A stretch of 33,754 nt of DNA from Pyrodictiaceae archaeon (GTDB taxonomy: Archaea; Thermoproteota; Thermoprotei_A; Sulfolobales; WANQ01). Below, piece after piece: positions 1 through 30,349 of the stretch (within the stretch, counting starts at the first letter, position 1; the number at the start of each line of letters is the position of its first letter). The DNA lies in the NCBI GenBank assembly GCA_015521735.1, contig WANQ01000021.1, positions 1 to 33,754 of the forward strand, given 5' to 3'. Under the pieces are notes generated by a model, which worked only from the letters and a program-made list of their open reading frames with translations, ran no database searches and had not been told where the DNA came from. Position numbers and translations under genes: made by a program.

Positions 1-21
1 ATAGGATCCAAGGGATTGATT

Positions 22-1257
22 ATGGCTAACAATGTTAACAGTAGTTTTAGAGGATACCTTAAAAGTAAGGTTATATACAGGATATTTAGTAATACTGGAT
101 GGCCTGAGTGGATTGGAGGAATACTACTAGGACTAGTCAATATATTATTTGTTATATGGGCTCTAAAGCCATTTACTATCTATACGGGATACCTCAATTG
201 GGGTCGTAACATCTATTCTATGTTTGGAGTCCAAGTATTTGGTTTACCTAAGACTATTCCATTGTTTGAAAAAACAAGTGTAGGAGATATAGGATTATTC
301 ATTGGAGCATTCTTGGCAGCAATACTCTCTAATGAGTTTAGGATAAGGTTGCCCAATTCAAGACTAGACTATATTGAAGCAATAGCTGGAGGCCTTCTAA
401 TGGCTTTAGGCGTTGTTTTTGCTAGAGGTTGTAATTGGGGAGGTTTCTTCTCAGCCATAACAGTACTCAGTCTTCACGGCTACTTAATGTTTATAGGACT
501 ATTAATAGGAGGACTACTAGGCTCTATGTACATTAAATGGAGGGTAAGCTATGATGCTAAACGTTTAGAACTAGAACTAGATAAACTAGATACGGCTAAT
601 CCAGTTAATCCAGCTAGTAGTAGATTAAGACTACAGAAAATTACGGCTACAATACTCGTAATGCTATTATTAGCTATAGCTCTAACGACTTTTACCACGA
701 ATCCTAATGGTGACTTATATTTAGGTATACTATTATTTGGCATAATAGTTGGTATAGTTATTCAGAGGAGTAGATTCTGCTTTGCAACAGCATTTAGAGA
801 TATAGTACATGGGGGCGGAGAATTCCGTAGAAGCGTGAGATTACAGATAGGAATAGTACTTGGTATTATAGTTGGTGCTACTGGTGTATTTATACTAAAA
901 TATCAAGGAATAATTGATCCAATGCTATACGTAAAGTCTTCTAGTGTATTCAACATTTTAGGTGGTATACTATTTGGTTTAGGCATGGTTATAGCAGGTG
1001 GATGTGCTTCAGGTAGTTTGTGGAGAGCAGCTGAAGGGCACATTAAATTATGGGTAGCTCTAATAGCATCTGTTCTATCATATCCCGTATTTAAGACAGT
1101 AATCGAATCTAATGTTAAATGGATATTTGGTTCTCAAGTATCCTTAATAGACATTTTTGGATGGAGTGGCTCTATTCTATTTGTATACATATCTATGTTG
1201 GTTTGGCTCCTTGTAATACTATATTTAGACTATAGGAGGGGTGGTAGATATGGTTAA
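22..1257 (+). CDS. YeeE/YedE-family sulfur-compound permease
   Basis: Polytopic membrane protein of about 411 residues made of two YeeE/YedE-type repeats; the family imports thiosulfate or related sulfur (in some bacteria probably selenium) compounds. The repeats carry the family's conserved cysteines: RGCNWGG in the first half, then RFCFATAFRD and AGGCASG in the second, in the glycine-rich membrane segments where the transported sulfur species is thought to be handed along. An in-frame TTG lies at 16, but ATG 22 follows an AAGGG ribosome site (10-14) at a better distance. The gene overlaps tusA by 8 nt, so permease and sulfur carrier are translationally coupled. Family assignment is firm; thiosulfate versus another substrate is inference. 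Confidence 0.9.
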   Translation: MANNVNSSFRGYLKSKVIYRIFSNTGWPEWIGGILLGLVNILFVIWALKPFTIYTGYLNWGRNIYSMFGVQVFGLPKTIPLFEKTSVGDIGLFIGAFLAAILSNEFRIRLPNSRLDYIEAIAGGLLMALGVVFARGCNWGGFFSAITVLSLHGYLMFIGLLIGGLLGSMYIKWRVSYDAKRLELELDKLDTANPVNPASSRLRLQKITATILVMLLLAIALTTFTTNPNGDLYLGILLFGIIVGIVIQRSRFCFATAFRDIVHGGGEFRRSVRLQIGIVLGIIVGATGVFILKYQGIIDPMLYVKSSSVFNILGGILFGLGMVIAGGCASGSLWRAAEGHIKLWVALIASVLSYPVFKTVIESNVKWIFGSQVSLIDIFGWSGSILFVYISMLVWLLVILYLDYRRGGRYG

Positions 1258-1501
1258 ATTCATTGCTAAGTCAAGTAACAAGTATTTATTAGATGTTAGA
1301 GGACTAGTATGTCCTTATCCAGTAATCTATACACGTAAAGCATTGAGTAAGTTAAAGCCAGGTGACGAACTAGAGGTATTAACGGATAATCCACCATCAT
1401 GTGAGAATGTTCCAAGAGCTGTTAGAGAGGAAGGTCATGAAGTATTGGGAGTAGAACGTGTAGAGGAAGGAGTTTGGAGGATAATTATTAAGAAGAGGTG
1501 A
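1250..1501 (+). CDS. tusA: TusA-family sulfur carrier protein
   Basis: Small (83 aa) TusA/SirA/YedF-like protein. The signature LDVRGLVCPYPV contains the CPxP motif whose first Cys carries a persulfide. TusA proteins take sulfur from a donor and pass it on to tRNA thiolation, cofactor synthesis or dissimilatory sulfur enzymes. A GTG at 1241 is in frame, but the strong AGGAGGG at 1234-1240 directly abuts it and lies 9 nt before ATG 1250, so ATG 1250 is preferred. It overlaps the upstream permease and is followed 8 nt later by the SelD-like gene. YeeE-TusA coupling is well known and suggests TusA accepts sulfur from the imported compound. Confidence 0.93.
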   Translation: MVKFIAKSSNKYLLDVRGLVCPYPVIYTRKALSKLKPGDELEVLTDNPPSCENVPRAVREEGHEVLGVERVEEGVWRIIIKKR

Positions 1502-1509
1502 TTTCTTTA

Positions 1510-2943
1510 ATGTTTGAGGAGGTTCTTGAAAGAATAAAGTATTATAAGAAACTTGGTGTAAACCCGCTATCACTAGCTACTGGTTGTGCTGTAAAAGTAG
1601 ATTTACTAAGAGTAGTATATCCTGCATTAGGAGAACTAGTACCTAAGCTTAGAGAAAAGGGATTAGTAATAGCTCCTAGAGAAGATGCAGACATATTTCC
1701 TAGACCCAAAGATGGAGTAGAAATACATAGAAGAATATACAGTTTAGGTAAGAATACTAATGTTGACCCTAAGGAAATAAGGAGTATTAAGCCTAGTAGA
1801 GCTATAGTCTTAGTCCAAGTATATCAAAGATATGCTGATGAACCTGAAAAGTTTGCTGAACTAGTAGGCCCAGTTTATGAGAAAATAGCTGAATCACATG
1901 TACCAATACACATAGGTAAAGGTCACTCAATAGTAACGCCATTCAAGGAAGATCAGTTCATGATGGTGGACTTCATCAAGCCATTGAGTAGTGCTGTTGA
2001 AGGTTTTACTTTAGCTAACAACGATACAATACACATAATTGATCCTACAGATGATCCAGGAAGCTATAAACAAGTCTCTGGAGCACTAAGCAACACATTA
2101 AATGACCTATTCGTACTCGGTGCTTACGAGAATCTTAGACTAGCACTAGTGGTTAATGCGCCACTAGAAGAACTAGTTGATAAAATGATTAAACATGCAG
2201 AGAAATTTGCAAAAGAAGTAGAAGCTGAAATAGTAGACGTACCTTTACCTAAGAAAGGTAAACTGTTAATTGGTGCAACAGCACTAGCTGATACACTAAA
2301 GCATCCACCAGTATTCTATGATAAAGTTAAACCCGGAATGAAGTTAATAGCTACACGCCCCTTCGGTGAATTAGCTCCAATAAACGTATACATTGCATGT
2401 ATAATAGATGAATCAATAATAGGAGATCTAGAACAACAAGGATTAACAATAGAAGCACTAGAAAAGTATAAAGATGAAGCAGTAGAGACAATATCAAGAC
2501 CTAACAAGAAGGTAGCTAAAGTAATTAACAAATACCTACCAGAATACAATGAAGTATACCGTGAAGACGAGCACATAGCAGCTACAACAGATGTAACTGG
2601 TCCAGGAATATATGTTGTAAGAGAACTAGCTGAACAAACCAAGACAAAAATACTACTACATGATATACCATTACTATTCCCAGAAATATCCAGAATAGCT
2701 AGCTCACTATACCTTATACCAAATGCAACAGCAGGTACTAATGGAGCATTTGTAGTGATAGCACCAAATGAGATAGTAGATGACATACTAAGTGATCTTA
2801 AAGCAATTGGGTTAAATCCAGTAGTATTCGGTGAAGTAATTGATAAAGGGGAACCAGAAGTAATTGCTCCAAAGAAACTTAAAGAATACGTTGTTGATCG
2901 TAAAATACTATCGAAGTTTAAGATAGTAGAAGAGGTTAATTGA
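1510..2943 (+). CDS. SelD-like AIR-synthase-superfamily protein (selenophosphate synthetase paralogue)
   Basis: About 477 aa, longer than typical SelD (about 350). SelD/PurM-fold landmarks are readable: an N-terminal LATGCAVKVDL resembling the GxGCGCK catalytic loop of SelD (first Cys and Lys kept, second Cys changed to Val); DDPGSYKQV...SNTLNDLFVLG matching the SelD DDP...NALSDVYAMG metal/ATP segment; TTDVTGPG matching TDVTGFG; and GTNGAFVV in place of the TSGGLL loop. An extra stretch of over 100 residues separates the Cys/Lys loop from the first ATP-binding segment. ATG 1510 is preferred over GTG 1498 because GAGGTGA (1495-1501) lies 8 nt upstream of it. The neighbours are a YeeE permease and TusA, so the likely role is ATP-dependent activation of sulfur or selenium. 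The product is unknown; no selenocysteine machinery is visible here. Confidence 0.8.
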   Translation: MFEEVLERIKYYKKLGVNPLSLATGCAVKVDLLRVVYPALGELVPKLREKGLVIAPREDADIFPRPKDGVEIHRRIYSLGKNTNVDPKEIRSIKPSRAIVLVQVYQRYADEPEKFAELVGPVYEKIAESHVPIHIGKGHSIVTPFKEDQFMMVDFIKPLSSAVEGFTLANNDTIHIIDPTDDPGSYKQVSGALSNTLNDLFVLGAYENLRLALVVNAPLEELVDKMIKHAEKFAKEVEAEIVDVPLPKKGKLLIGATALADTLKHPPVFYDKVKPGMKLIATRPFGELAPINVYIACIIDESIIGDLEQQGLTIEALEKYKDEAVETISRPNKKVAKVINKYLPEYNEVYREDEHIAATTDVTGPGIYVVRELAEQTKTKILLHDIPLLFPEISRIASSLYLIPNATAGTNGAFVVIAPNEIVDDILSDLKAIGLNPVVFGEVIDKGEPEVIAPKKLKEYVVDRKILSKFKIVEEVN

Positions 2944-2944
2944 A

Positions 2945-3214
2945 TTGAAATGTACTAAAATAGTAGTGCATGGAGAAGTTCAAGGAGTAGGGTTTAGAAG
3001 ATACGTATGGTCCGTTGCTAAGAGGCTAGGGCTAAAAGGTTATGTTAAAAACCTTAGCAATGGTAGAGTAGAAATAGTAGTACAAGGAGACATTGAGGAC
3101 ATAGAGAAATTACTAAACAAAATACGTAGTACAAAAATCTTTACCATACAAGGTATAGAGCGTACTCTTATTGAATGTAATTCTTTTGATGACTTCGAAA
3201 TAATAGGATACTAA
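2945..3214 (+). CDS. acyP: acylphosphatase
   Basis: An 89-residue single-domain acylphosphatase, which hydrolyses carboxyl-phosphate mixed anhydrides in the cytosol. The signature is clear: VHGEVQGVGFRRYV with the phosphate-binding Arg, and GYVKNLSNGRVEIVVQGD with the catalytic Asn and the NGRVE motif. It starts at TTG 2945 one base after the SelD-like stop; the ATG at 2950 is out of frame. An AGAGGT ribosome site lies at 2931-2936. Tight coupling to an ATP-using SelD-like enzyme could mean it removes an acyl-phosphate or phospho-side-product, but that is inference; acylphosphatases also occur as housekeeping genes. Confidence 0.92.
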   Translation: MKCTKIVVHGEVQGVGFRRYVWSVAKRLGLKGYVKNLSNGRVEIVVQGDIEDIEKLLNKIRSTKIFTIQGIERTLIECNSFDDFEIIGY

Positions 3215-4640: not shown

Positions 4641-4710
4641 ATACTTAAGACAACTCAAAGTATACTTCCCCGTTAAATACTGTAATAGCTAATAAAGCCT
4701 CTATGCAGGA

Positions 4711-4722
4711 AAAATATAAATA
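4711..4722 (+). promoter_or_regulatory. TATA box of the glycyl-radical enzyme operon
   Basis: An AAAATATAAATA element lies about 60 nt upstream of the ATG at 4777 and predicts a start near 4743, giving a leader of about 35 nt that contains GGGGT (4765-4769) as ribosome site. A GTTATAG half-site, also found in the dyad at 4624-4640, lies just downstream of the TATA. Confidence 0.6.
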
Positions 4723-4776
4723 ACTGGGTTATAGGTATAGTGTATTACATGTAGTGATGTTTCTGGGGTAGTATTT

Positions 4777-6387
4777 ATGAAGACAAGAAGAGTTATTTCC
4801 TATGAAAAGGAGCCCACGGCTATCCAGCATGCTAAGCTTACTGGAAGTGTTGCTGAGAAAGCACTTAGTATTATTAGATCTAGAAGTCTCACCTATCAAC
4901 AAAAACTTAGAGCATTAGCAAAGGTAGCTGAAGACTCTATACCTTATCCCGAATTATCAGATCATACATTAAAGTTAATGAAGGAGGGAATACTACACGA
5001 TCTTGATGAAGGACATGCACCCTATAGACCAAGATATATACTACCAGACTACATGAAGCTCATTGAGAATGGCTCAAAGTTTCTTGAAATAGAACCACCT
5101 AAAAACATGTATGATGCTATAGGAGCATTAATATCTATGTACGCTAATGTTCCATCAATTACAAGTTACCCCGTATACCTCGGTGATATCGACAAGCTCT
5201 TACAACCATTTGTTAAGACTGTAAGTAGCTCTGAATTAGTGAATCTCCTAATAATGTTTTGGAGAATTATTGATAGAATGCTTCCTGACGCCTTTGTTCA
5301 CGCCAACTTGTCGCCAAATGACAATATTATAACACGTAAGCTCCTCGATATAGAGTTGAAGGTTAAACAAGTAGTCCCTAATCTTACACTAAAATTTGAT
5401 CTAGAACATACTCCCCGTGACCTAGTCATTAAAGCTATAGTAAATGCATTACATCTATCTAAACCTTACCTTGTAAACGATATACTTGTTAGAAAAGACT
5501 GGCCACAGGGGTACGGCGTAGCTAGTTGTTATAACATTTTACCATATGCTGGTGGCAGCTTTACACTCATAAGGGTAAACCTTTACAGAATAGCAACTAA
5601 ATACAATGGAGACATAGACTTAATATTAAATGAAGGTATACCTGAAGTAGTAAAAGCTGCAGCAGAACTAGTAGAAGCTAGAACATCATTTATAGTTGAG
5701 GAAAGCGGATTCTTTGAAACATCATTTCTAGTTAACGAGGAGTTCATATACGAAGATAATTTTACAGCAATGTTCGGAATCTATGCTTTAGCTGAAGCAC
5801 TAGAATACATAGCTAAAGCTAATAACTTGAAAGGAGAATACGGCTACGATGAAGAGGTTAATAAGATAGCTATAAACATTATAGAGAAACTATACAATGA
5901 GGTAGAAAAATACCATATAAAATACCTTAAAGCTAGTAATGGTAAAATGGTACTCCACTCACAAGCAGGAATAAGTACTGACAAGGAGACACCAGGTATA
6001 AGGGTAAAGTATGGTAAAGAACCTCACCCATACGATTACGTAGAATTATTATCAATAATGCATAAATACATCAAAGCTGGTACAAGCGAAATATTCACAT
6101 TCAATCAAACAGCAAGACACAACCCAGAAGCAGTATACGATATAGTTGTAGGGGCATTCAAGAAGGGCATGAAGTTCTTCTCAATAACTAGTACATTCAG
6201 TGAATTCATTAGAGTTACAGGCTATCTAATAAAGAAGGAGGATTTAGAGAAGTTCAAGGAAGGCAAAGTTGCTAGACACGATACAGCATATCTTGGTGCT
6301 GAAGCAGTGATTAACCAGAGAGCTCTTTCAAGAAGACCACTAGGCTTAGATGAACTATTTAAACTAGGTCTTAGGGTAACTCAATGA
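4777..6387 (+). CDS. YjjI-like glycyl-radical enzyme
   Basis: A 536-residue protein resembling the YjjI family (DUF3029) of glycyl-radical enzymes, not pyruvate formate-lyase or NrdD proper. The C-terminal radical loop reads EFIRVTGYL, placing the radical on Gly482. A single cysteine exists in the whole protein, Cys251 in GVASCYNILPY, exactly where glycyl-radical enzymes carry the thiyl-radical Cys mid-barrel. The absence of a C-terminal zinc-binding Cys set argues against class III ribonucleotide reductase. ATG 4777 has GGGGT upstream. The stop overlaps the activase start (ATGA). Family reaction is not known to me, so no substrate is given. The enzyme would be inactivated by oxygen, which fits an anaerobe. 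Confidence 0.85.
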   Translation: MKTRRVISYEKEPTAIQHAKLTGSVAEKALSIIRSRSLTYQQKLRALAKVAEDSIPYPELSDHTLKLMKEGILHDLDEGHAPYRPRYILPDYMKLIENGSKFLEIEPPKNMYDAIGALISMYANVPSITSYPVYLGDIDKLLQPFVKTVSSSELVNLLIMFWRIIDRMLPDAFVHANLSPNDNIITRKLLDIELKVKQVVPNLTLKFDLEHTPRDLVIKAIVNALHLSKPYLVNDILVRKDWPQGYGVASCYNILPYAGGSFTLIRVNLYRIATKYNGDIDLILNEGIPEVVKAAAELVEARTSFIVEESGFFETSFLVNEEFIYEDNFTAMFGIYALAEALEYIAKANNLKGEYGYDEEVNKIAINIIEKLYNEVEKYHIKYLKASNGKMVLHSQAGISTDKETPGIRVKYGKEPHPYDYVELLSIMHKYIKAGTSEIFTFNQTARHNPEAVYDIVVGAFKKGMKFFSITSTFSEFIRVTGYLIKKEDLEKFKEGKVARHDTAYLGAEAVINQRALSRRPLGLDELFKLGLRVTQ

Positions 6388-7145
6388 GAAAAAACAATAA
6401 AACTAGAAGCAGCCATGAAGCACTAGTTGCAGGAATAGTACCTTCAAGCTTTGTTGACGGTCCAGGTAACAGACTCGTAGTATTCCTACAGGGATGTAAT
6501 TTAAGATGCATCTACTGCCAAAACCCAGAAACCTGGGATCCAACAGGTAAGAAGAATCCATTATGCATTAAGGTTAGCCTAGAGGAACTTCTTAGAGTAG
6601 TTAACAAGTATATTGACTTTATATCAGGGATAACATTTAGTGGTGGAGAACCACTACTACAGTGGAGATTCATAAGAGAGTTTTCACGGAAATTCAAGAG
6701 CTTACATCCAGATAAGACAATAATAGTTGACTCAAACATAGATGTAGAGTCATCAATTTTAATTGAAGTAAGCAAATACGTTGACTACTTTACACCTGAT
6801 ATAAAGGCTCCTAACCCAGAACTTTATAGGAAAGTAACTGGTGGGCTAGGCAATTTTACTAGAATGATCAGCAATCTCAAGTTACTGGATAGTATGGGTA
6901 AGATTTATGAAGTAAGATTACCTATAATACCAACTATAACTGATAGTGAGGAAGTATTTAATGAATGGATAAATATTCTAAAAGAGCATGTTAATAGTAA
7001 CGTCAGGTTAAGAATAATAAAATTTAGACCTCATGGTGTAGCAAACAGTTTTCTTAAAAACAAAACAGTTAATGAGGAAGTAGTTAAGAACCTTATAAAC
7101 ATGCTTAAAATCAATGGTTTTACTAACATAGTCTACCTAGGCTAA
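6384..7145 (+). CDS. radical-SAM glycyl-radical-enzyme activase
   Basis: A 253-residue activating enzyme with the radical-SAM cluster motif CNLRCIYC (Cys38, 42, 45) preceded by FVDGPGNRLVVFLQG, and the SAM-binding SGGEPLLQ. The family uses a [4Fe-4S] cluster and S-adenosylmethionine to abstract hydrogen from the glycyl-radical Gly, here Gly482 of the preceding gene. It lacks the extra eight-cysteine ferredoxin insert seen in larger activases, including E. coli YjjW: only one further Cys, in NPLCIK, follows the motif. The ATG overlaps the enzyme's stop by 4 nt, so the pair is coupled. Role confident; partner assignment rests on adjacency. Confidence 0.9.
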   Translation: MRKNNKTRSSHEALVAGIVPSSFVDGPGNRLVVFLQGCNLRCIYCQNPETWDPTGKKNPLCIKVSLEELLRVVNKYIDFISGITFSGGEPLLQWRFIREFSRKFKSLHPDKTIIVDSNIDVESSILIEVSKYVDYFTPDIKAPNPELYRKVTGGLGNFTRMISNLKLLDSMGKIYEVRLPIIPTITDSEEVFNEWINILKEHVNSNVRLRIIKFRPHGVANSFLKNKTVNEEVVKNLINMLKINGFTNIVYLG

Positions 7146-10829: not shown

Positions 10830-11303
10830 GTGTCTAGGGATTTCTTAAAGGAAGTAGAGGAAATGATTCGTAAAGAAGTAGAGTATGCTAAAGAATTAGA
10901 CGAGCTGTCAAATATGATAGACCACCCAGTTCTTCAGGCACTCTTTAAAGCTATAGCATTTGATTCAAGAAAACATAGCGTACTATACACATCAGCTCTC
11001 AGATTACTTCGTGAGGAAATTAAGGCTTTAACTGAAGAAGAACTAAAAATTATATCTGAGAAAGTGAGGAAGCATATAGAGTTAGAAAAAGAAATGATTG
11101 AGAGAACACTAGAATTAATGAAGCAAACAGATGATCCTAAGTTAAAGTTAATACTTGCATCAATACATGAAGATGAGGTAAAGCATCATAAGCTACTAAC
11201 CGATATAGAAAAGAACATAGCATCAAAGTATGGTGTAACTGAAGAAGAACTATGGGATATGGTTTGGAAGGATAGTCCTTGGCATGGTACTCCTGGAGGT
11301 TAA
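10830..11303 (+). CDS. ferritin-like four-helix diiron protein
   Basis: A 157-residue, nearly all-helical protein with the charge pattern of ferritin/rubrerythrin-like domains. Probable ligands: Glu in RKEVEYAKEL, Asp/His in AFDSRKHS, Glu in KHIELEKEMIE, and Glu/His in HEDEVKHHKL. No rubredoxin CxxC pair is present. It starts at GTG 10830, 51 nt after the metal ATPase, and may be cotranscribed. A T-rich stretch after the stop (about 11341-11366) could end the transcript. Roles consistent with the fold are metal storage or peroxide/oxygen handling; which one cannot be told. The C-terminal tail is Trp/Gly rich (WKDSPWHGTPGG). Confidence 0.75.
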   Translation: MSRDFLKEVEEMIRKEVEYAKELDELSNMIDHPVLQALFKAIAFDSRKHSVLYTSALRLLREEIKALTEEELKIISEKVRKHIELEKEMIERTLELMKQTDDPKLKLILASIHEDEVKHHKLLTDIEKNIASKYGVTEEELWDMVWKDSPWHGTPGG

Positions 11304-16594: not shown

Positions 16595-17509
16595 TTACTG
16601 ATTAGTGTTTAAACCATATAGTTTCTCAATGAGCTTTCTTTGATTATGGCTAAGGTCTTCTATAATCTTAATCTTCAATTCAGGATTATAAATGTACTTT
16701 GGTGTACGTAGTCTTTTGTCAAGGTATCCTAGTAGAGTTTTTCTTGTCATTAGAATAGCAGTATCCCTACTACCTCTCAGTAGTTCACGTTTTATACTCT
16801 TTCTATTCCTAGTAAAGTATGGGTCATCTATGTTCTCGTAAAGTCTTAGTGCTTTATAGACATATTCTATTCTAGTTTGCTTTAACCTATATATCTCTGT
16901 GAATTCTCCTAGAAGCTTATGTCTTATAGCTGAACTATAAGTATCCTTTGGATGTGGACTTGGATTTAAGCCTAATATCATGTCTTTAGCCATCAAGATC
17001 AAAGTGAAGGCATCCATTAGTATTAGTAGTGCTTCCAGTCTTCTACCTCTAAAAAGTAGATCATAGATCTTGTCTAACAAGTACTCGGCATATTCTTTAG
17101 CGTTTTCTATGTCTTTTCTACTCCATTTCCAAGCTTTCATTAACTCTAAGTAACGGTGTAAGATATTGTCTCTATCACATAGTATTAGCGGTTCCTCCAA
17201 GATCTTAAAGTATAGTGAGTGCGTTATCCATAGACTATTACTTGCTTTAGCATCTAATTCTTCTAAAATATCTTCTAATTTACTTAATGGAATGTAGATT
17301 ACGTCTAAGTCAACTACTCTTGTTTCCATGTAGACGTATTCTTCAACTCCTTTTTCATCCGTAAATACAGCTATGTCTATGTCACTATAGTTATCTGCTA
17401 ATCCTGTAGAGTAGGAGCCAAAAACTATTATGCTTAGTACCTTATCTCTACATTTAAGCCCATGCTTATTGATAAAATGTCGTAGATTCTGTAGATCTAT
17501 GCGTGTCAA
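16595..17509 (-). CDS. MNT-type nucleotidyltransferase with C-terminal helical domain
   Basis: A 304-residue protein whose N-terminal domain is a minimal Pol-beta-like nucleotidyltransferase: IIVFGSYSTGLADNYSDIDI (GS motif and DxD metal-binding pair) and a third acid in VVDLDVIYI. The rest (about 130-300) is helical and contains a HEPN-like stretch (AKEYAEYLLDKIYDLLFRG). MNT/HEPN proteins often form toxin-antitoxin or AMPylation pairs, but others tailor antibiotics or RNA. It starts at TTG 17509 and overlaps the upstream poly-proline gene by 4 nt, so the two are coupled. Catalytic residues look intact; the target is unknown. Confidence 0.75.
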   Translation of the reverse strand: MTRIDLQNLRHFINKHGLKCRDKVLSIIVFGSYSTGLADNYSDIDIAVFTDEKGVEEYVYMETRVVDLDVIYIPLSKLEDILEELDAKASNSLWITHSLYFKILEEPLILCDRDNILHRYLELMKAWKWSRKDIENAKEYAEYLLDKIYDLLFRGRRLEALLILMDAFTLILMAKDMILGLNPSPHPKDTYSSAIRHKLLGEFTEIYRLKQTRIEYVYKALRLYENIDDPYFTRNRKSIKRELLRGSRDTAILMTRKTLLGYLDKRLRTPKYIYNPELKIKIIEDLSHNQRKLIEKLYGLNTNQ

Positions 17510-18222
17510 TAACCTGATGCCTCACAATACCTCTTATAAGCTCTTTCTGCATCCTTTACAGCTGTATTATAGAGTAGTTGATTATTTACTCTTAGATTAG
17601 CCCATATACTATATAGTTTTTCAGCATCTACTCTATATCTTGCAATCTCATAGACGTTCTCAACGTTAACCTTACCCTTAACGTGTTTATTGTAGACACG
17701 TCTAATAAAGACCTTATCCGGCTCCAAAGCACTCATCCCAATAACTTCACCAATCATGTCAATGAGCCTCATGGATTCACCAATACCTTTACGGTTGAGT
17801 ACATAGGCTATAAGGCCTTGGGAGCCAGTTATCCTCCCCAGCTTAGAAACTTCAACCTCATAGTGCTTAAATATTCTCCCAACACTAACTAGTCGGGCTG
17901 TACCCACTCCAGTGTAGAGCATATAGGCAAGAGAAGCTGTAACCATAGCATGATACAATGATCTATGTGAAACCTTAACACCAGAATAAGGCGACTTAAA
18001 TCCTCCAACACTTACACTCCTAGCATACATCTCCGGGAATAAGTATACTAAAGCATCAGGAGGCAATGAAATGACATCAGTAACCTTTATGTCATCTCCT
18101 AGAGACTTTCCAACAGATCTGTTATCCAGGAAACCTGGAGGTGGAGGTGGCGGAGGTGGAGGGAATCTAAAGTCTTTACCCAATTTTAGCACAACGCAGA
18201 GCTTTTGATGTGTTTTCCGCAT
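17506..18222 (-). CDS. uncharacterised protein with nine-proline run
   Basis: Not recognised. 238 residues: a basic N-terminus, then nine consecutive prolines (21-29) encoded by mixed CCT/CCA/CCG codons, a polar linker, and a mixed alpha/beta region ending in basic helices rich in Tyr and Arg (about 175-238). No membrane segment is evident. Translating nine prolines should need aIF5A, so expression may be sensitive to it. The mixed codons argue against recent repeat slippage. The gene overlaps the nucleotidyltransferase by 4 nt (TTGA), suggesting a functional pair: possibly the partner or substrate. ATG 18222 is the only good start. Confidence 0.65.
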   Translation of the reverse strand: MRKTHQKLCVVLKLGKDFRFPPPPPPPPPGFLDNRSVGKSLGDDIKVTDVISLPPDALVYLFPEMYARSVSVGGFKSPYSGVKVSHRSLYHAMVTASLAYMLYTGVGTARLVSVGRIFKHYEVEVSKLGRITGSQGLIAYVLNRKGIGESMRLIDMIGEVIGMSALEPDKVFIRRVYNKHVKGKVNVENVYEIARYRVDAEKLYSIWANLRVNNQLLYNTAVKDAERAYKRYCEASGY

Positions 18223-18374: not shown

Positions 18375-19178
18375 ATGTTTGCTCCGTGTGTGGTGGGTGG
18401 GGATGCAGCGCCAATATTGAATAATGACTTCCTACGTTCCCTAAATGCTAGCCTAAGTGATCATATTAGTCTTGATGTATTGGAAGATAAGGTTAAGAGA
18501 AGTAAGAGAAGACTGTTAAACCTTCTTAGTAAGGTTGGTGGATGGCATTCTTGGTCTTCACTATCTTCGCTAAATATCATAGCAGTATTGTTTAGCTCTT
18601 GGATTGCTGAAGGATACGCTATGGGTGTCGAGAGATTAGTAGTTGTTAGTAAGGGGCATGCTGCTCCATCAGTATATTCTTGGCTAGTTGAAATGGGGGT
18701 TATCAAGGAATCTGAGCTTGAGGATTTTGCTACACCTTGGTCAAGGCTTCAATCACATCTAGACGCATTGAGGTTACCGGGTATAGTTGTTTACTCTACA
18801 GGATCCCTTGGTCAAGGACTATCTATTGCTAATGGTATAGCTATAGCCTCTAAAATAGATTCTATAAGGAGAGAAGTAGCTGTTCTTCTAGGTGATGGCG
18901 AACTTGATGAAGGACAAGTATGGGAGGCTATTGCTACAGCTTCAGCATTAAAATTGGATAATGTCATAGCTATTATTGATCGAAATATGGTTCAACACAC
19001 TGGTTTCACTGAGAAGGTTAAGCCTAAGGAGCCTTTAGCTGCCAAGTTTAATAGCTTTGGATGGTATGTTCTAGAAGTAATAAACAATGTTAAAACCATA
19101 CATAGTGGTCTAAGGACACTATCAAGTATTAATGGTAAACCTAAGGCTCTAATAGTTAGAAGTAATAGAAGGTGGTAA
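18375..19178 (+). CDS. transketolase, N-terminal (TPP-binding) subunit
   Basis: A 267-residue half-size transketolase subunit. Thiamine-diphosphate features: GHAAPSVYSWLVE (substrate/TPP loop) and GDGELDEGQVWEAIATAS with the GDG...N Mg/TPP motif (ending near DRNMVQ). With the next gene it forms a split transketolase, which interconverts sugar phosphates and can supply erythrose-4-phosphate. As first gene of a shikimate operon it probably feeds E4P to DAHP synthase. Overlaps the C-terminal subunit by 7 nt. Confidence 0.92.
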   Translation: MFAPCVVGGDAAPILNNDFLRSLNASLSDHISLDVLEDKVKRSKRRLLNLLSKVGGWHSWSSLSSLNIIAVLFSSWIAEGYAMGVERLVVVSKGHAAPSVYSWLVEMGVIKESELEDFATPWSRLQSHLDALRLPGIVVYSTGSLGQGLSIANGIAIASKIDSIRREVAVLLGDGELDEGQVWEAIATASALKLDNVIAIIDRNMVQHTGFTEKVKPKEPLAAKFNSFGWYVLEVINNVKTIHSGLRTLSSINGKPKALIVRSNRRW

Positions 19179-20116
19179 TTATTGTATATTCAGGAAGCTT
19201 TAGAAAAGCCTTTGGAGAAGCACTTGTTGAAGCCGGCTACTTAAACGAAGACATTATAGTACTAGATGCTGATACACCAAAGTCTACGTGGACTAAGCTC
19301 TTTGCAAACACGTTTCCCCATAGATTCATTAACGTAGGTATTAGTGAACAAGACCTAGTATCTACAGCAGCAGGATTAGCAATAGCTGGTAAAATACCAG
19401 TTGTTGCAGGCTTCTCTATGTTTCTAATGAGAGGATGGGAGCAAATTAGGAATACTATCTCAAGAGACCACTTAAACGTTAAAATTGTTGGTACGCATTC
19501 AGGGCTATCTGATTACATGGATGGTGCATCACATCAATGCTTTGAAGATATAGCATTAATGAGAGTTCTCCCAGGCTTTATAGTACTTGTTCCAGGAGAT
19601 GAAATTGCAACGAGGAAGATAGTTCTTGAAGCACTACTTGAACACAAAGGACCTGTATACATAAGACTTGGAAGAGATAATGCTCCAAAAATATACGATG
19701 AATTCGAGGAGTTTCCTATAGGTAAGCTAAAGATAATAGAAGATCCTGGAGACATCGTATTATTCTCTAACGGCTTTACCCTAGGCCTAGCCTTAGAAGT
19801 AGCAAATGAGTTAAAAAGACATGGAATAAGCACTGGTGTAGCAGATGTCTATACAGTTAAACCATTAGACAAGGACGGCATTATAAAGTTGTCTAAGAAG
19901 GTAAACTTGGTTGTAGCTATAGAGGATCACAGCATCTATGGTGGCCTAGGATCAGCTATAGCTGAAGTACTAAGTGAATCATATCCTAAGAGAATACTAA
20001 GAATAGGAATACGTGACGAATTTGGTGTGAGCGCAAGAAGTTTTTCTCAACTCATCGAATATCTAGGCTTCACGCCAGCTAATATAGCCTTAAAAATAAT
20101 TGAGGTGTATGCATGA
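19172..20116 (+). CDS. transketolase, C-terminal (pyrimidine-binding) subunit
   Basis: A 314-residue partner of the preceding subunit. It has the pyrimidine-domain pattern RFINVGISEQDLVSTAAGLA, whose Glu activates TPP, a central GTHSGLSDYMDGASHQ loop, and the C-terminal transketolase domain (VAIEDHSIYGGLGSAIAE). The start at GTG 19172 sits within AGAAGGTGG, overlapping the upstream stop. Its last bases overlap the DAHP synthase start (ATGA), so all three are coupled. Confidence 0.92.
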   Translation: MVIIVYSGSFRKAFGEALVEAGYLNEDIIVLDADTPKSTWTKLFANTFPHRFINVGISEQDLVSTAAGLAIAGKIPVVAGFSMFLMRGWEQIRNTISRDHLNVKIVGTHSGLSDYMDGASHQCFEDIALMRVLPGFIVLVPGDEIATRKIVLEALLEHKGPVYIRLGRDNAPKIYDEFEEFPIGKLKIIEDPGDIVLFSNGFTLGLALEVANELKRHGISTGVADVYTVKPLDKDGIIKLSKKVNLVVAIEDHSIYGGLGSAIAEVLSESYPKRILRIGIRDEFGVSARSFSQLIEYLGFTPANIALKIIEVYA

Positions 20117-20910
20117 AGCTAAGATTAGTATCTAAAAACTATAGAGATAAAACTATTGTTAAAGTAGGTAACGTAGAGATAGGTTCAAGTAAGCCAGTTA
20201 TTATAGCAGGTCCCTGCGCTGTCGAATCTAGAGAACAAATCCTAGAGATAGCTAAAGTCTTAAAGAATATAGGAATTCACATACTACGTGGAGGAGTATT
20301 TAAGCCTAGAACATCACCATATAGTTTTCAAGGTTTAGGTGTTAAGGGATTAGAGTACTTAAGAGAAGCAGCTGATTCTACAGGATTACCCATTGTTACA
20401 GAAGTTCTTGACCCTAGAATGGTTAAGTTAGTTGCTGAATATGTTGATGCAATACAGATAGGTGCTAGGAATATGCAGAACTTCCCTCTTCTCCGCGAAG
20501 TTGGTAGAATAGAGAAGCCAGTACTCCTTAAAAGAGGATTTGGTTCAAGAATAGATGAATGGTTAAGTGCAGCCGAATACATACTACTTGAAGGAAATGA
20601 CCAGGTAGTTTTAGTTGAGAGAGGTATTAGGACATTTGAAACAGCAACAAGATTTACCTTAGATATAGCAGCAGTTCCAGTGCTAAGAGAGCTAACGCAT
20701 CTTCCAGTTATAGTTGATCCTAGCCATGCAGCTGGCCGTAGAGAACTTGTTAAACCATTAGCTAAAGCAGCATTAGCTGCAGGAGCAGATGGATTAATGA
20801 TTGAAGTACACCCAAACCCTGATAAAGCATTATCTGATGCACGTCAACAATTAACTCCCGAAATGCTTAAGGAATTGATTGGTGAGCTTAAATGGATGAG
20901 ATTACTCTGA
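20113..20910 (+). CDS. aroF: 3-deoxy-D-arabino-heptulosonate-7-phosphate synthase (type I-beta)
   Basis: A 265-residue DAHP synthase, first enzyme of the shikimate pathway, condensing phosphoenolpyruvate and erythrose-4-phosphate. Motifs: AGPCAVES, FKPRTSPYSFQGLG, QIGARNMQNFPLL, LLKRGF and VDPSHAAGRRE, the last with metal-binding His. It is the short I-beta form, with neither an N-terminal ferredoxin-like nor a fused chorismate mutase regulatory domain, so feedback control is not evident in this chain; the separate chorismate mutase downstream may play a part. It overlaps aroB by 19 nt. Confidence 0.95.
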   Translation: MKLRLVSKNYRDKTIVKVGNVEIGSSKPVIIAGPCAVESREQILEIAKVLKNIGIHILRGGVFKPRTSPYSFQGLGVKGLEYLREAADSTGLPIVTEVLDPRMVKLVAEYVDAIQIGARNMQNFPLLREVGRIEKPVLLKRGFGSRIDEWLSAAEYILLEGNDQVVLVERGIRTFETATRFTLDIAAVPVLRELTHLPVIVDPSHAAGRRELVKPLAKAALAAGADGLMIEVHPNPDKALSDARQQLTPEMLKELIGELKWMRLL

Positions 20911-21971
20911 GACTTAGAACTGAGAAGGAAGCTAGAATAATTATTGGTAAGAGTCTAATAGGGGAAATAGGAAGCATTATAGCTAACATGTACCCATACA
21001 AGGTCATGGTAGTAGCCGATAAAAATGTCCCAAAAACCATCATTGAACATGTCGTCCAAGATCTAAAAACCAATGATCTAGATACAAAAATTTTACTTGT
21101 ACCTGGTGGTGAAAGAATAAAGAGTTTGTCATTCATAGATAAGTTATGGAGGTTAATGATAGATAATGGTCTAACTAGAAAATCATTTATCGTAGTTGTA
21201 GGTGGTGGTACACTACTTGATTCTGTAGGTTTTGCAGCTTCCACTTACATGAGAGGTTGTAAGCTAGTATATATTCCAACAACTACTTTATCACAAGTAG
21301 ATGTAGCTATTGGTGGTAAGACGAGTATTAATATAGGTAATGTTAAAAACATTGTAGGAACGTTTTATCACGCAGACATAGTGCTAATAGATCCAAGTAT
21401 ACTATTAACGCTTAGCCATGAAATATATCTTTCAGGTTTTTCAGAAGTAGTAAAACATGCTATTATAGAAGGCATTGAAGGCGTTAAGTTCCTAGAAAAT
21501 AGAATAGCCGGTATTATAGAACGAGATTTGAATGTACTTGAAGAAGTAGTAAAGTTTAGCGTTATGGTTAAACTCAACATAGTAGAACAAGACTACGTAG
21601 AAGATAGGAATATTAGGACAGTATTGAATTTTGGACATACAATAGGTCATGCAATAGAGTCTGCTACAAATTACAGTATACCACATGGCTATGCAGTCTC
21701 CATTGGACTAGTCATAGAATCTTACATAGCTAATGGTATACTAGGTTTCCCAAGAGAAGACGTTGAAAGAATAGTTAGGATCCTTAAGCTACTAGGTCTT
21801 CCCACAAAACCTATGGTATCTTCAACTAGTTTATTGAAGGCTATGAGAACTGATAAAAAGTTCCTACACGGTAAGCCAGTTCTACCTCTACCTAGAAAAC
21901 TTGGGTTATTTGAAACCATAGAGTTAGAGTGGAGGGATATAGAGTTATGGGTGAAAAAGTTAATCCATTAA
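20892..21971 (+). CDS. aroB: 3-dehydroquinate synthase
   Basis: A 359-residue NAD- and metal-dependent enzyme converting DAHP to 3-dehydroquinate. Seen: VVGGGTLLDSVGFAAS (NAD loop), PTTTLSQVDVAIGGKT, SEVVKHAIIEG and NFGHTIGHAIES with metal-ligand His. Length matches the family. It begins inside the DAHP synthase gene and ends inside aroD, consistent with one mRNA. Confidence 0.95.
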   Translation: MDEITLRLRTEKEARIIIGKSLIGEIGSIIANMYPYKVMVVADKNVPKTIIEHVVQDLKTNDLDTKILLVPGGERIKSLSFIDKLWRLMIDNGLTRKSFIVVVGGGTLLDSVGFAASTYMRGCKLVYIPTTTLSQVDVAIGGKTSINIGNVKNIVGTFYHADIVLIDPSILLTLSHEIYLSGFSEVVKHAIIEGIEGVKFLENRIAGIIERDLNVLEEVVKFSVMVKLNIVEQDYVEDRNIRTVLNFGHTIGHAIESATNYSIPHGYAVSIGLVIESYIANGILGFPREDVERIVRILKLLGLPTKPMVSSTSLLKAMRTDKKFLHGKPVLPLPRKLGLFETIELEWRDIELWVKKLIH

Positions 21972-22684
21972 ATATAGTCTGTAGCGTTATTGCTACAAGC
22001 TCTCTAAACAAGATGCAAGTGCTTGCAGTAAATACTAAAACTAAGCTAGTAGAGTTAAGATTAGACCACTTGGAGAATCCTAGTATACTGAATCCTAGCA
22101 CATTAGAAAGTATAGGCAACTTAGTAACTAAACTTGAGGATGCGGGGAAGAGGGTTATCTTAACACTTAGAGATAAATCTGAAGGAGGAAAATATCATGG
22201 ACCCAACAGTGTCAAGGAAAGGATTTTAATAGAATTAGCACGTTATAGGCCGAGCTACATAGATATTGAGGCTAGAAATCCCATAATAAATAATATAATT
22301 GATAAATTAGCAAGTACTGTTAGGAGTGGCATTATAGTATCTATGCATTTCCTAGACAAGTCATTAACCCTTGATGCCATAAAGGTTTTAGCTAGGGAGA
22401 TACTTAGTATAGGATCTCGCTTTAATGGAAGACAAGTACTAGCGAAGATAGTCTATAAGTGCAATAGTGTTTATGAAGAATTACCAGCAATGCAAGCAGT
22501 AGTTGAATACAAAGGTAGGTTGATTTCTTTCGCAATAGGTGAATCATGTAGGATATCTAGGCTTCTAGCTCCATTTCTAGGAGCTCCCTTCACCTACGCC
22601 TACCATGGTTCTCTACGAGTAGCACCTGGGCAATTCAAGGTTAACGAGGTGTTTAGGTTATGGAGGTTAATGGGCATAGCTTAA
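21947..22684 (+). CDS. aroD: type I 3-dehydroquinate dehydratase
   Basis: About 245 residues; dehydrates 3-dehydroquinate to dehydroshikimate by a Schiff base. Motifs: VELRLDHLENP, LTLRDKSEGG, YIDIEAR, IVSMHFLDKS with the catalytic His position, and AKIVYKCNS with the Schiff-base Lys, then SFAIGESCRISRLL. ATG 21947 is chosen because GGAGGG at 21931-21936 lies about 10 nt upstream; an in-frame GTG 21929 would overlap aroB further. It overlaps aroE by 25 nt. Confidence 0.94.
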   Translation: MGEKVNPLNIVCSVIATSSLNKMQVLAVNTKTKLVELRLDHLENPSILNPSTLESIGNLVTKLEDAGKRVILTLRDKSEGGKYHGPNSVKERILIELARYRPSYIDIEARNPIINNIIDKLASTVRSGIIVSMHFLDKSLTLDAIKVLAREILSIGSRFNGRQVLAKIVYKCNSVYEELPAMQAVVEYKGRLISFAIGESCRISRLLAPFLGAPFTYAYHGSLRVAPGQFKVNEVFRLWRLMGIA

Positions 22685-23511
22685 AGTACTATCTAATAGG
22701 TCATCCTGTAGCACATAGTCTTAGCCCAATAATATACAATAGCTATTTCAAGGAACACGGTATACCAGCATCTTATGGTATAATTGATGTTGCTTCACAC
22801 AAACAATTAGTAGATACATTAAAGGATTTGAGAAGGAGGGCTCTAGGATTCAATATCACTAAACCACATAAGATATCCGTTACTAAGCTATTAGACTTCC
22901 TTGATAAGCATGCAAGGATTATTGGTGCGGTAAATACCGTTAAAAAGGAAAATAATAGACTTATAGGTTATAACACTGACTGGATAGGCTTTAGAGAAGC
23001 TCTTCAAAGATTTACAGGTTCCAAGAAGTATAATAAAGCTTTACTACTAGGTGCAGGTGGTGCTGGTAGAGCTGTTGCATATGCTTTAGTAGGTATGGTT
23101 GATGAACTTATTATTGTTAGTAAAAGCGGTATTACAGCAGAGCAATTAGCAGTAAAAGCTATTAAATGGGGCATACCTAGTGCCATAGGTCTTAAAGCTA
23201 ATTGGAATAACATGGCTGATCTTGTTAGAAATACCGAACTAATAGTAAACGCTACACCAGTAGGATTTAACAATTCTTTGTCAACACCTATTCCACCTAA
23301 GCTAATAACTAGTAAGGTAGTCGTATTTGATTTAGTCTATAGGCCGTTGAAGACTAGGTTATTAAAGGAAGCAGAAAGTAAGGGTTGTAATGTAATTGAC
23401 GGGCTATGGATGTTGGTATATCAGGCTAGCATGAATATCAAGATATGGTTTGGCTTCAACGCTGATGCAATAGAACTTAGACGTTATGCCTTAAAAGCAT
23501 TGGAGGGTTAG
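22660..23511 (+). CDS. aroE: shikimate dehydrogenase
   Basis: A 283-residue NADP-linked reductase of dehydroshikimate. Substrate-domain motifs VAHSLSPIIYN and FNITKPHK (catalytic Lys), then TDWIGF and the Rossmann loop LLGAGGAGRAVAYAL; the C-terminal DGLWMLVYQAS is also typical. It starts within aroD and ends 5 nt before the shikimate kinase gene. Confidence 0.95.
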   Translation: MEVNGHSLKYYLIGHPVAHSLSPIIYNSYFKEHGIPASYGIIDVASHKQLVDTLKDLRRRALGFNITKPHKISVTKLLDFLDKHARIIGAVNTVKKENNRLIGYNTDWIGFREALQRFTGSKKYNKALLLGAGGAGRAVAYALVGMVDELIIVSKSGITAEQLAVKAIKWGIPSAIGLKANWNNMADLVRNTELIVNATPVGFNNSLSTPIPPKLITSKVVVFDLVYRPLKTRLLKEAESKGCNVIDGLWMLVYQASMNIKIWFGFNADAIELRRYALKALEG

Positions 23512-23516
23512 CAGGA

Positions 23517-24372
23517 ATGAGCATTGGAGTAGCAACTACACATGCAGCACTTAGCATCTTAAACGCTATACCTACAGGTATTGGTGGTGCAATTGGCATA
23601 GACTTAAAGGTAAAAGCAATTGTTAAGCTAACCAGTAAGGGTAATGCTATAATAGAATCTTGGGCTCCTAGTGGAAGAGTTAGGCCACCAAGAAAACTCG
23701 TAGAAGAACTAGTAAGATTAGCTAGAAGACATGGATACGAAGGTGGATTTTACGCTAAGGTTGACTCCTCAATACCTATAGCAGTAGGACTTAAGAGCAG
23801 TAGTGCAGTTGTAAATGCCTTAATTCATGCTCTACTTAGAGCTCTAGGTAAAGAGGTCTCGCCAACCAATATAGCTAAGCTAGGTGTTGACATAGCTAAG
23901 AAGTCTAAGCTAACTATTACCGGAGCATTTGATGACTCACTTGCCAGCCTCTTAGAGGGAGTATTCATCACAGACAATATAAGGGTTAAAATTCTCAAAC
24001 ACTACAGGTTTAACGATGAACTATATGCTGTAATAATAGTACCTAACAATAGTAATCCTATCAATAACGTTAACCCCAATATTTTCGCCAAGTACAAGAG
24101 CCACTATTTATCGGCTATCTCCTTTGCTCTGAGAGGTAATTGGCTTAAGGCGATGACTATTAATGGTTTAGCGACAATGAATGCTTTAGGATTGAGTATG
24201 AAGTATTCAAAACTAATTGAAAAGATACTTGGGCTATCATCTATTAAAGCTATAGGAGTTTCTGGTAAAGGACCAGCATTTTTTTGCTGTAACAAGTGAT
24301 CCTGAACAAGTAGCTATGAGGTGGGAAGGAGAAAAATTACTAATAGCTAAGCTTCTAGGTGGAAGTAGTTGA
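23517..24372 (+). pseudogene. GHMP-type shikimate kinase, frame interrupted at a T7 run
   Basis: Archaeal shikimate kinase of the GHMP (galactokinase-homoserine kinase) superfamily, phosphorylating shikimate. Motifs: PIAVGLKSSSAVVNALI (ATP loop), TGAFDDSLASLLEG and GVSGKGPAFF. The reading frame stops at 24297-24299 after 260 residues. One frame over, from the T7 run at 24279-24285, the expected C-terminus is readable (AVTSDPEQV...LLIAKLLGGSS) and stops at 24370-24372, overlapping aroA as TTGA, like every other junction in this operon. A single extra T in the run explains it. Either a sequencing/assembly error, a real frameshift, or a slippage site that still yields full-length enzyme. It is essential for the pathway, so true loss is unlikely. 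Confidence 0.88.
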
Positions 24373-25640
24373 GACTGATTGTATACCCTGTTCATTCAAG
24401 TATTGAAGGAGTAATTAAAGCACCACCTTCTAAAAGCTATACCCATAGAGTACTATTTGCTTCCCTCTTAGCATGCGGCGAATCACTGATTCTTAATCCT
24501 TTATTAGCAAGAGATACAATTGCATCTATCAATGCTATTAAGAAAATGGGTGCAGAAATAAAATGGCTTAAACAAGCTCTTCGCGTTAAAGGCGTATGCA
24601 GTGAAATAACTAATCCTCACTGGATAGATTGTAAAGGATCAGGAACTACTATCAGAATAGCAACAGCGGTTTCAAGCCTACTTGAAGAATACGTATTATT
24701 ATATGGAGATGAAACACTCAATAACAGGCCTATGTATCCTTTACTTAAAGCTCTTAGTAATGTGGGAGTAGAGTCTATATCAAGGAATGGTTATCCACCA
24801 ATTGTTATACGGGGACCTATAAGAAAGAGTAGCGAAGTAATAATTAATGGTAGTATTAGCTCACAATTCGTAACCGCTCTTCTAATGATTTCTCCTATTA
24901 CTGATCTTCAAGTAAGAGTTATAGGGGAAATTGTCTCTAGGCCATACATAGATATAACGATTAGGGTTCTTGAATCCTTTGGTGCAAAGATTAGAAGAGA
25001 TGGATATAGATTCTATGAGTCTCAAGGTAGTGGGCTAAGAGCCTCTATATTCGAGATTCCAGGCGATTATTCTTCTGCAGCTTTCCTACTAGCTTTAGGC
25101 GCTATTAAGGGAAGGATTAAGGTGATAGGACTTAATTCTAGAGATGTTCAGGGTGATAAAATAATAGTTGATATTTTGAAGAATATGGGAGCGCATGTAC
25201 ATGTAGGTGCTGACTATGTTGAAGTAGAGTCTTCAGGTATATTAGAGGGTGTTGAAGTAAATCTTAAGGATACACCTGACTTAGCACCTGTTGTAGCAGC
25301 ATTAGCAGCCTACGCTAATGGCACTACTGTTATAAGAGGGGTAAAGCATTTAGCGTTTAAGGAATCGAATAGACTACACACTATTACTAAAGTGTTAAGG
25401 TTTTTCGGGGTATATGCAAAGTATTCTGAAGACTACTTAGTCATTAAAGGAGGTAACATTAAGGGTGCAGTCATTAGCACATTTAACGATCACAGAATAG
25501 CTATGATGGCTATAATTGTTGCTTTAGGTGGGCAAGGTATAGCTGAAATACGTGGTGTTGAGAGAATTTCTGACTCATACCCATTCTTTATCAAAAATCT
25601 TAGGGAATTAGGGGTAAGAGTTGAGGTGATAAATGATTGA
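24369..25640 (+). CDS. aroA: 5-enolpyruvylshikimate-3-phosphate synthase
   Basis: A 423-residue EPSP synthase transferring the enolpyruvyl group of PEP to shikimate-3-phosphate. Seen: KAPPSKSYTHRVLFAS, CKGSGTTIRIATAVSS, NRPMYPLL, ISSQFVTALLMISP, DYSSAAFLLALGA, KESNRLHT and FNDHRIAMMAI, in family order. It starts at TTG 24369, overlapping the shikimate kinase tail, and ends overlapping aroC (TTGA). Confidence 0.96.
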   Translation: MRLIVYPVHSSIEGVIKAPPSKSYTHRVLFASLLACGESLILNPLLARDTIASINAIKKMGAEIKWLKQALRVKGVCSEITNPHWIDCKGSGTTIRIATAVSSLLEEYVLLYGDETLNNRPMYPLLKALSNVGVESISRNGYPPIVIRGPIRKSSEVIINGSISSQFVTALLMISPITDLQVRVIGEIVSRPYIDITIRVLESFGAKIRRDGYRFYESQGSGLRASIFEIPGDYSSAAFLLALGAIKGRIKVIGLNSRDVQGDKIIVDILKNMGAHVHVGADYVEVESSGILEGVEVNLKDTPDLAPVVAALAAYANGTTVIRGVKHLAFKESNRLHTITKVLRFFGVYAKYSEDYLVIKGGNIKGAVISTFNDHRIAMMAIIVALGGQGIAEIRGVERISDSYPFFIKNLRELGVRVEVIND

Positions 25641-26749
25641 TTGGTAAATTATTTAGAGTATCCATATTTGGTGAAAGTCATGGTAAAGGTGTAGGCGTAC
25701 TTATTGAGGGTTGTCCGCCTGGTATACCATTAGATGAAGGCTACATAGCTAAGGAATTAGAGAGAAGAAAGCCTGGAGGAATCCTAGTTTCACCTAGACA
25801 AGAAAGTGATAAACCTAGAATATTGTCAGGAGTATTTAGGGGTAGGACTACTGGTGGGCCACTAGTAATATTTGTTGAGAACCGTGACATTGATTCAAGT
25901 TTTTATGAGGAAATAAAGGATACTCCTAGGCCAGGTCATGCAGACTATGTTGCTAGGGTAAAATACTGGGGATTTAATGATTATAGGGGTGGAGGAATTA
26001 GTTCAGGTAGAATAACTGTAGGCATAGTGGCTGCAGGTGCTGTAGCTAAGAGAATTCTATCACTATACAATATAAGGGTATACTCATATATAGTTAGAAT
26101 TAACGGTGTAGAGGCAAACATTAAACCAGTTGACAATGAATCGTTTAGGCAGAAAATATACTCTAATCCCCTAAGATGCCCAGATTCTAGAGTAGCTAAG
26201 ATTATGGAGGAAGAGCTACGTAGAGCTTTAAGAGAAGGTGATAGTCTTGGAGGAATTGTGGAAACAATTGTATTTAATGTACCAGTGGGCCTTGGCGATC
26301 CACCTATGAATGGACTTGATAGTGATTTAGCTAAAGCGATGTTATCCATACCTGGTGCTAAAGGTATAGAATTCGGCTTAGGCTTTAAACTAGCCTCCAT
26401 GAAGGGTAGTGAAGCAAATGATTCATGGACTATTAGGAATGGAAAAATAGTAGCAGAATCCAATAACATGGGGGGAATAAATGGAGGTATAAGCAATGGC
26501 ATGCCAATTATCTTTCGAGTAGTATTCAAGCCCACGCCAACAATTAGGAAGCCTCAGAAAACAGTAGATCTTAGAACAAGAAGACAAGTAATCATTAGAG
26601 GACAAGGAAGACATGATCCCTGTATAGCCATTAGAGCAGTCCCTGTAGTTGAAGCTTATACAGCCATTGTATTAGTAGACCATCTTCTAAGGTGGCTTGC
26701 ATGGCAACCCCTAAAATCGAGGATCTTAGGCGTAGAATCGATCAAATAG
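25637..26749 (+). CDS. aroC: chorismate synthase
   Basis: A 370-residue flavin-dependent enzyme converting EPSP to chorismate. Signature motifs: FGESHGKGVGVLIEGCPPG, RTTGGPLVI, RPGHADY, GGGISSGRITVG and GRHDPCIAIRAVPVVEA. TTG 25637 overlaps the aroA stop. Needs reduced FMN, normally supplied by a separate reductase in monofunctional forms. Confidence 0.96.
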   Translation: MIGKLFRVSIFGESHGKGVGVLIEGCPPGIPLDEGYIAKELERRKPGGILVSPRQESDKPRILSGVFRGRTTGGPLVIFVENRDIDSSFYEEIKDTPRPGHADYVARVKYWGFNDYRGGGISSGRITVGIVAAGAVAKRILSLYNIRVYSYIVRINGVEANIKPVDNESFRQKIYSNPLRCPDSRVAKIMEEELRRALREGDSLGGIVETIVFNVPVGLGDPPMNGLDSDLAKAMLSIPGAKGIEFGLGFKLASMKGSEANDSWTIRNGKIVAESNNMGGINGGISNGMPIIFRVVFKPTPTIRKPQKTVDLRTRRQVIIRGQGRHDPCIAIRAVPVVEAYTAIVLVDHLLRWLAWQPLKSRILGVESIK

Positions 26750-29891: not shown

Positions 29892-29924
29892 GAAGCTACA
29901 CCCAGAGTTGCTAAGGAGGTCTGC

Positions 29925-30146: not shown

Positions 30147-30349
30147 TATACCTACAGCAAAACCCTTGATAACTCTTTACTACAACTAGAGACAATAAAT
30201 GCTGATACTTCCATAAACTTAGACCCTAACTTTAGGAGTTTTAAGGTTATCAACTCTGATATGCATGTCTGATCTGAGGATAGTGATATGCACGGTTGTC
30301 AACATTTGTTGGAAGAAGTCTTGGAGTTGAAGGAGGTTGTTCTATTGTT

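Follow-up and report, generated by a model that had tools for sequence, protein, structure and literature searches.

The window, a stretch of 33,754 nucleotides at positions 1 to 33,754 of contig WANQ01000021.1 of a Pyrodictiaceae archaeon (assembly GCA_015521735.1), carries on its forward strand a gene for a 536-residue glycyl-radical enzyme of the YjjI family (yjjI, 4777..6387) that runs directly into a gene for its radical-SAM activase (6384..7145). The product of yjjI matches the YjjI glycine radical enzyme model (TIGR04040) with 616.3 bits against a cut-off of 498.3, over positions 2-496 of 497, and PF11230 with 605 bits; together with an AF2 model and its fold matches in the PDB, these scores leave practically no doubt that the ORF encodes a bona fide YjjI glycyl-radical enzyme, as an earlier note on this DNA had proposed. 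On the same strand upstream of yjjI, a TATA-box-like AT-rich element (aaaaatataaata, 4710..4722) is a candidate archaeal promoter, and a possible ribosome-binding site (GGGGT, 4765..4769) lies 7 nt ahead of the ATG.

The protein has a single cysteine, Cys251 (codon at 5527..5529), which is the predicted thiyl-radical residue, and an RVTGY glycyl-radical motif at residues 479-483 (6211..6225) that contains Gly482; both features, to which the earlier note had drawn attention, were read in the ORF, and both sites are invariant in an alignment of 58 divergent YjjI proteins. That the cysteine is solitary had been taken as a strong sign of glycyl-radical chemistry, but the count itself is not rare in a genome this poor in cysteine: the other ORFs of the window have 47 cysteines in 8,689 residues, so that 2.9 would be expected in 536 residues (P(<=1)=0.21). 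The weight of the observation comes instead from the position, since Cys251 is the only cysteine invariant in the 58 proteins. The archaeal protein keeps all 35 of the 35 columns that are identical in the alignment, among them, besides Cys251 and Gly482, Arg86-Tyr87 (5032..5037) and His394-x-Gln396 (5956..5964), of which His394 and Gln396 are candidate acid/base or substrate residues. Position 74 (4996..4998), in the segment aligned to the HxHDLD motif of class III ribonucleotide reductase (NrdD), is cysteine in 53 of the 58 proteins, histidine in the archaeal protein and in one from Bacillota (L165), and asparagine or aspartate in the other three; judging from the sequence, the archaeal enzyme, if active, would need no second thiol.

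The activase (253 residues, plus strand) shares an ATGA with yjjI, the four nucleotides at 6384..6387 serving as stop of one gene and start of the other, and has both a VDGPG motif and the CX3CX2C motif (C38, C42, C45; 6495..6518) of the SAM-binding 4Fe-4S cluster, which is conserved with E. coli YjjW; the overlap described in the earlier note is thus borne out. It scores 74.7 bits with PF04055 and 183.2 bits with the YjjW model TIGR04041, under the cut-off of 250.2 because the ferredoxin-type insert is missing. It is 35% identical to E. coli YjjW, which has this Cys-rich insert, and it is termed YjjW-like, a short form that also accounts for 8 of 99 partners of bacterial yjjI in our set; an activase gene adjoins yjjI in all 99 testable bacterial loci. 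E. coli YjjI/YjjW (b4380/b4379; TIGR04040/TIGR04041) is the closest familiar pair, with 40% identity between the YjjI proteins over their full length, the same invariant residues and the same activase overlap, but the E. coli proteins differ from the archaeal pair in having Cys74 and nine cysteines in total rather than His74 and one, a two-cluster ferredoxin insert in YjjW rather than a short activase, and adjoining deoCABD genes rather than no nucleoside genes nearby. In E. coli, yjjI and yjjW both appear among the genes activated by FNR (PMC2634741), as would suit a role in the absence of oxygen. A search of the open literature gave no reaction for any member of the family, in agreement with the earlier note.

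Searches of PDB sequences with the single protein and with a profile gave no strong match (best 0.011 for NrdD and 0.81 for pyruvate formate-lyase, PFL), so profile-profile and fold comparisons were needed to place the family. Profile-profile alignment (hhalign) of YjjI with NrdD has a probability of 99.4 and E=2.1e-21 over 439 columns. The AF2 model of the archaeal protein (pLDDT 85.8, pTM 0.87) was compared with the PDB by Foldseek: the 18 best matches are all class III ribonucleotide reductases (E to 1.4e-15, TMq to 0.70); next come PflD/YbiW structures, then other glycyl-radical enzymes and PFL, the last at rank 39. Cys251 is predicted to lie in a loop between strands 246-249 and 253-256, and Gly482 in one between strands 477-480 and 483-486, the strand-loop-strand positions expected of the thiyl finger loop and the glycyl loop. 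Fold and loop positions are in this respect compatible with the two loops meeting within a ten-stranded barrel, and nothing in the model contradicts the condition that the earlier note had set on Cys251 and Gly482. The (R)(I/V)TGY glycyl motif and the HDL and PN motifs are shared with NrdD as well. By profile alignment and modelled structure, YjjI is an offshoot of the class III ribonucleotide reductase fold.

It is not itself an NrdD. The NrdD model TIGR02487 gives the archaeal protein 26.2 bits against a cut-off of 326.35, so that it does not cluster with this characterised class. The ATP cone is absent, the alignment beginning at column 121 of the NrdD profile; the zinc ribbon is absent too, there being no zinc site in a protein with a single cysteine. 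According to both phmmer and profile alignment, Arg86-Tyr87 occupy the place of Asn78-Cys79 in T4 NrdD, of which Cys79 is the cysteine of the reductive half-reaction (PMC4493059). Thus, in YjjI an invariant tyrosine beside an invariant arginine stands where NrdD has a reducing cysteine. PflD/YbiW (PDB 8yjo, 8id0, 8id7), the next best fold class, shares the glycyl-radical barrel and provides a structure of such an enzyme with a sugar-phosphate ligand, but belongs to a PFL-type sequence family of about 760-810 residues with 10-13% identity to YjjI. We take PflD/YbiW to be a 1,5-anhydroglucitol-6-phosphate dehydratase.

The contig is archaeal, as is shown by its gene for a shikimate kinase of archaeal type (TIGR01920, 234 bits) and by the M24 peptidase downstream of the yjjI-activase pair, whose orthologues in genomes of the same family are 67-68% identical. 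In codon usage and GC3 the pair resembles the neighbouring genes. Within the host phylum, yjjI was found in one of 398 sampled genomes, and a search of 58 other relatives gave no copy. All other YjjI relatives found are bacterial and at most 46% identical to the archaeal protein in the alignment, a tblastn search gave no viral relatives, and the matches on plasmids were loci of Haliovirga and Chloroflexota with no pathway genes there. The archaeal protein forms a long branch of the tree (about 1.2 changes per site) that groups, weakly supported, with a second long branch, so no donor lineage is named. In genomes of the same family the M24 peptidase alone is kept and its neighbours are not conserved, so that an empty site is not demonstrable. 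The description of the protein in the earlier note as an archaeal type of enzyme is not supported, because its family is a bacterial one in which the archaeal copy stands alone: it is a new, isolated member of a family that is known but has yet to be characterised.

The neighbours of the archaeal pair are genes for FTR1, a phosphatase, a NikR-like protein and a P-type ATPase, with no pathway genes and no nucleoside genes among them. The earlier statement that no pathway genes adjoin yjjI therefore holds for this locus but not for the bacterial homologues, which are found repeatedly beside or inside nucleoside salvage operons. When neighbours were clustered for the first 80 loci, yjjW was the sole general partner, once a generic ABC-ATPase-like cluster and groups limited to related taxa are set aside, and in E. 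coli and other Enterobacteriaceae deoCABD lay next to yjjI; with the set of loci widened by genomes of Bacillota and Clostridia, nucleoside operons appeared. They include udp-deoB-bmp-yjjI-yjjW-ABC ATPase-permeases-cdd-add (L207), deoD-bmp-yjjIW-ABC-permeases-cdd(-deoC) (L208, L210), guaB-guaA ... yjjIW-bmp-ABC-permeases-cdd (L211), yjjIW-xpt (L160, L163), yjjIW-mtnA-class II aldolase (L159) and, in Providencia, nupC-yjjIW (L060). Udp, DeoB, Cdd, Add, DeoC, DeoD, XPRTase and MtnA were identified by NCBIfam equivalog models, and NupC by a subfamily model. In L159 (3424-5140), where a BMP gene is also nearby, the class II aldolase has a weaker match to haloarchaeal ribulose-1-phosphate aldolase, and the set of genes looks like a route from ribose-1-phosphate via ribulose-1-phosphate.

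The linkage was counted with 15 nucleoside-salvage queries, several of them proteins taken from the test loci themselves, over five genes on either side of yjjI. Nucleoside salvage genes were found at 11 of 39 Bacillota loci and in none of 58 control regions chosen away from yjjI in YjjI-bearing Bacillota genomes (P=1.7e-5), a comparison that controls the base rate alone, as the category was named after the neighbours had been seen; with only those genomes that gave controls, the counts are 6 of 18 and 0 of 58 (P=8e-5). On the YjjI tree the nucleoside-operon label needs 10 changes, of which supported branches require at least eight, so the linkage is a recurrent one in distinct clades. The remaining 28 of the 39 Bacillota loci, and every Bacteroidota or Actinomycetota locus examined, had no nucleoside genes within five genes. 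Because the operon partners differ, with uridine, purine, xanthine and MtnA branches, no single substrate is singled out.

Searches of the host genome, which covered selected families, detected deoxyribose-phosphate aldolase (DeoC, TIGR00126, 214 bits) and two loci of BMP-type ABC import systems that resemble nucleoside importers, which make a route for nucleoside use plausible. A class II B12-dependent ribonucleotide reductase (NrdJ, TIGR02504, 642 bits) is also encoded; its gene (L151, G000:C3:47000-53000) contains an intein N-terminal splicing region (TIGR01445, 53.7 bits). The only match to NrdD in the genome is YjjI itself. YjjI is not the enzyme by which the host makes dNTPs, since the genome has a class II reductase, and a role as a substitute for NrdD was rejected on this ground and because full-length NrdD is also present in 10 of 25 YjjI genomes.

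By the proposed mechanism, the activase would use SAM and its 4Fe-4S cluster to abstract a hydrogen atom from Gly482, and in each turnover the glycyl radical would be passed to Cys251 as a thiyl radical, which would take a hydrogen atom from the sugar moiety of a substrate derived from nucleosides; a nucleoside, ribose-1-phosphate or a similar pentose are candidates. In ribonucleotide reductase the 2'-OH is lost next, and active-site thiols or formate then bring about the reduction (PMC4390871). In YjjI the reducing cysteine is lost, an invariant Tyr87 being in its place, so the reaction should be redox-neutral, and thiol-based reduction at C2' is unavailable to the archaeal protein because it has no cysteine besides Cys251. 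Work on chemical models shows the C2 leaving group departing from a C3 radical whose 3-OH is free; 3-keto products result, as do furanones with loss of the base (PMC7321198). The ketyl radical in YjjI would thus most likely lose water (or another leaving group) before a hydrogen atom is returned from Cys251, and the product would enter nucleoside or pentose catabolism. Such a catabolic role is, on balance, probable. Chemistry of the dehydratase type is offered more tentatively, because dehydration is deduced from a missing residue, and isomerisation, C-C cleavage or C-N cleavage would be equally compatible with one thiyl cysteine. The two propositions taken together, a nucleoside-linked and redox-neutral reaction, make a reading that we consider plausible while stopping short of calling it probable. 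The undescribed anaerobic metabolism suggested in the earlier note is in this way narrowed, by the operon linkage in bacteria, to the catabolism of nucleosides or pentoses.

Against this reading may be set the view that YjjI is a simplified class III ribonucleotide reductase acting on nucleosides or nucleotides, which would make 2'-deoxy sugars with formate or another donor, Cys74 taking the reducing role in most members. Its fold and ancestry are those of NrdD, the second near-invariant cysteine is there in 53 of 58 proteins, and the nucleoside operons hold deoC, whose product consumes deoxyribose-5-phosphate; the difficulty is that the other five have His, Asn or Asp at position 74, that the archaeal protein, one of these five, would have to work with Cys251 alone, that an invariant tyrosine replaces the reducing cysteine of NrdD, that neither the ATP cone nor the zinc ribbon is retained, and that the host obtains its dNTPs from NrdJ. 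A reductase is accordingly considered unlikely. A lyase of carbon-carbon bonds or an acyltransferase resembling PFL would likewise use thiyl/glycyl logic in a common barrel, and PFL does appear among the fold matches, if at rank 39 and well after those of NrdD. PFL requires an adjacent pair of cysteines, which is missing from a protein with only one; a Pfam scan of YjjI gave no match to PF01228 or PF02901, no PFL-type family was among its Pfam and NCBIfam matches, and PF01228 had no match in the genome. We regard this assignment as extremely improbable.

The nucleoside-linked reading of YjjI has also to be weighed against service in an unrelated anaerobic pathway, such as one for amino acids, sugar alcohols or aromatic compounds, with the nucleoside operons as one of several incidental contexts. 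Most yjjI loci, including the archaeal one, are indeed without nucleoside genes nearby, and a study of expression biclusters suggested that E. coli yjjI acts in nitrogen assimilation (PMC3228777), whereas the recurrence of nucleoside genes in separate clades, with none in the control regions, and the failure of any function other than the activase to recur across phyla in the first 80 loci make incidental linkage rather unlikely. Finally, the archaeal gene might be a functionless or drifting transfer, as its occurrence in one of 398 genomes of the phylum, its long branch and its loss of the near-invariant Cys74 would allow. A drifting gene would hardly be expected to keep every invariant residue, an intact activase in an operon with a 4-nt overlap, codon usage and GC3 like those of its neighbours, and a plausible archaeal promoter, and we judge this explanation to be very unlikely.

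YjjI is an orphan glycyl-radical enzyme of E. coli, Salmonella and many anaerobes, and the value of these observations is that a testable function emerges for the whole family: its placement as an offshoot of ribonucleotide reductase, together with the nucleoside operons of several phyla, reduces the test to a short list of substrates. The archaeal protein, with one cysteine and probably stable to heat, would be a clean template, in that its radical chemistry would need no second thiol. In its fullest form the proposal, which is speculative but deserves consideration, is that YjjI is the first class of glycyl-radical enzyme devoted to the catabolism of nucleosides or their pentose phosphates, a class III ribonucleotide reductase that has shed its reductive cysteine and its regulation to become a radical sugar lyase or dehydratase, and that a hyperthermophile uses a single-Cys copy in an oxygen-free breakdown of nucleosides new to archaea. 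If this is true, a fold that makes DNA precursors has been turned into a catabolic enzyme.

Several other features of the window are recorded here. A cluster of sulfur/selenium type (16-3214) encodes a YedE/TsuA-like transporter, a TusA/YedF-like protein, a SelD-related protein (NF038049, 623.8 bits, cut-off 250) and an acylphosphatase-like ORF. A 157-residue ORF (10830-11303) has no more than weak matches to the rubrerythrin, fatty-acid desaturase, DIT1_PvcA and EncB families. The region of about 2 kb at 28853-30862 has no long ORF apart from a doubtful one of 133 residues on the minus strand (29490-29891), and a tRNA-Gly(CCC) at 30350-30428 is the only Rfam family there. Overlapping minus-strand ORFs at 16595-18222, for a nucleotidyltransferase-domain protein (304 residues) and a 238-residue protein that has no Pfam family, are possibly a toxin-antitoxin-like pair. 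A compact operon for aromatic amino acids (18375-28852) encodes a split transketolase, DAHP synthase, DHQ synthase, DHQ dehydratase, shikimate dehydrogenase, the archaeal GHMP shikimate kinase, EPSP synthase, chorismate synthase, an aminotransferase and a prephenate dehydrogenase-like protein.
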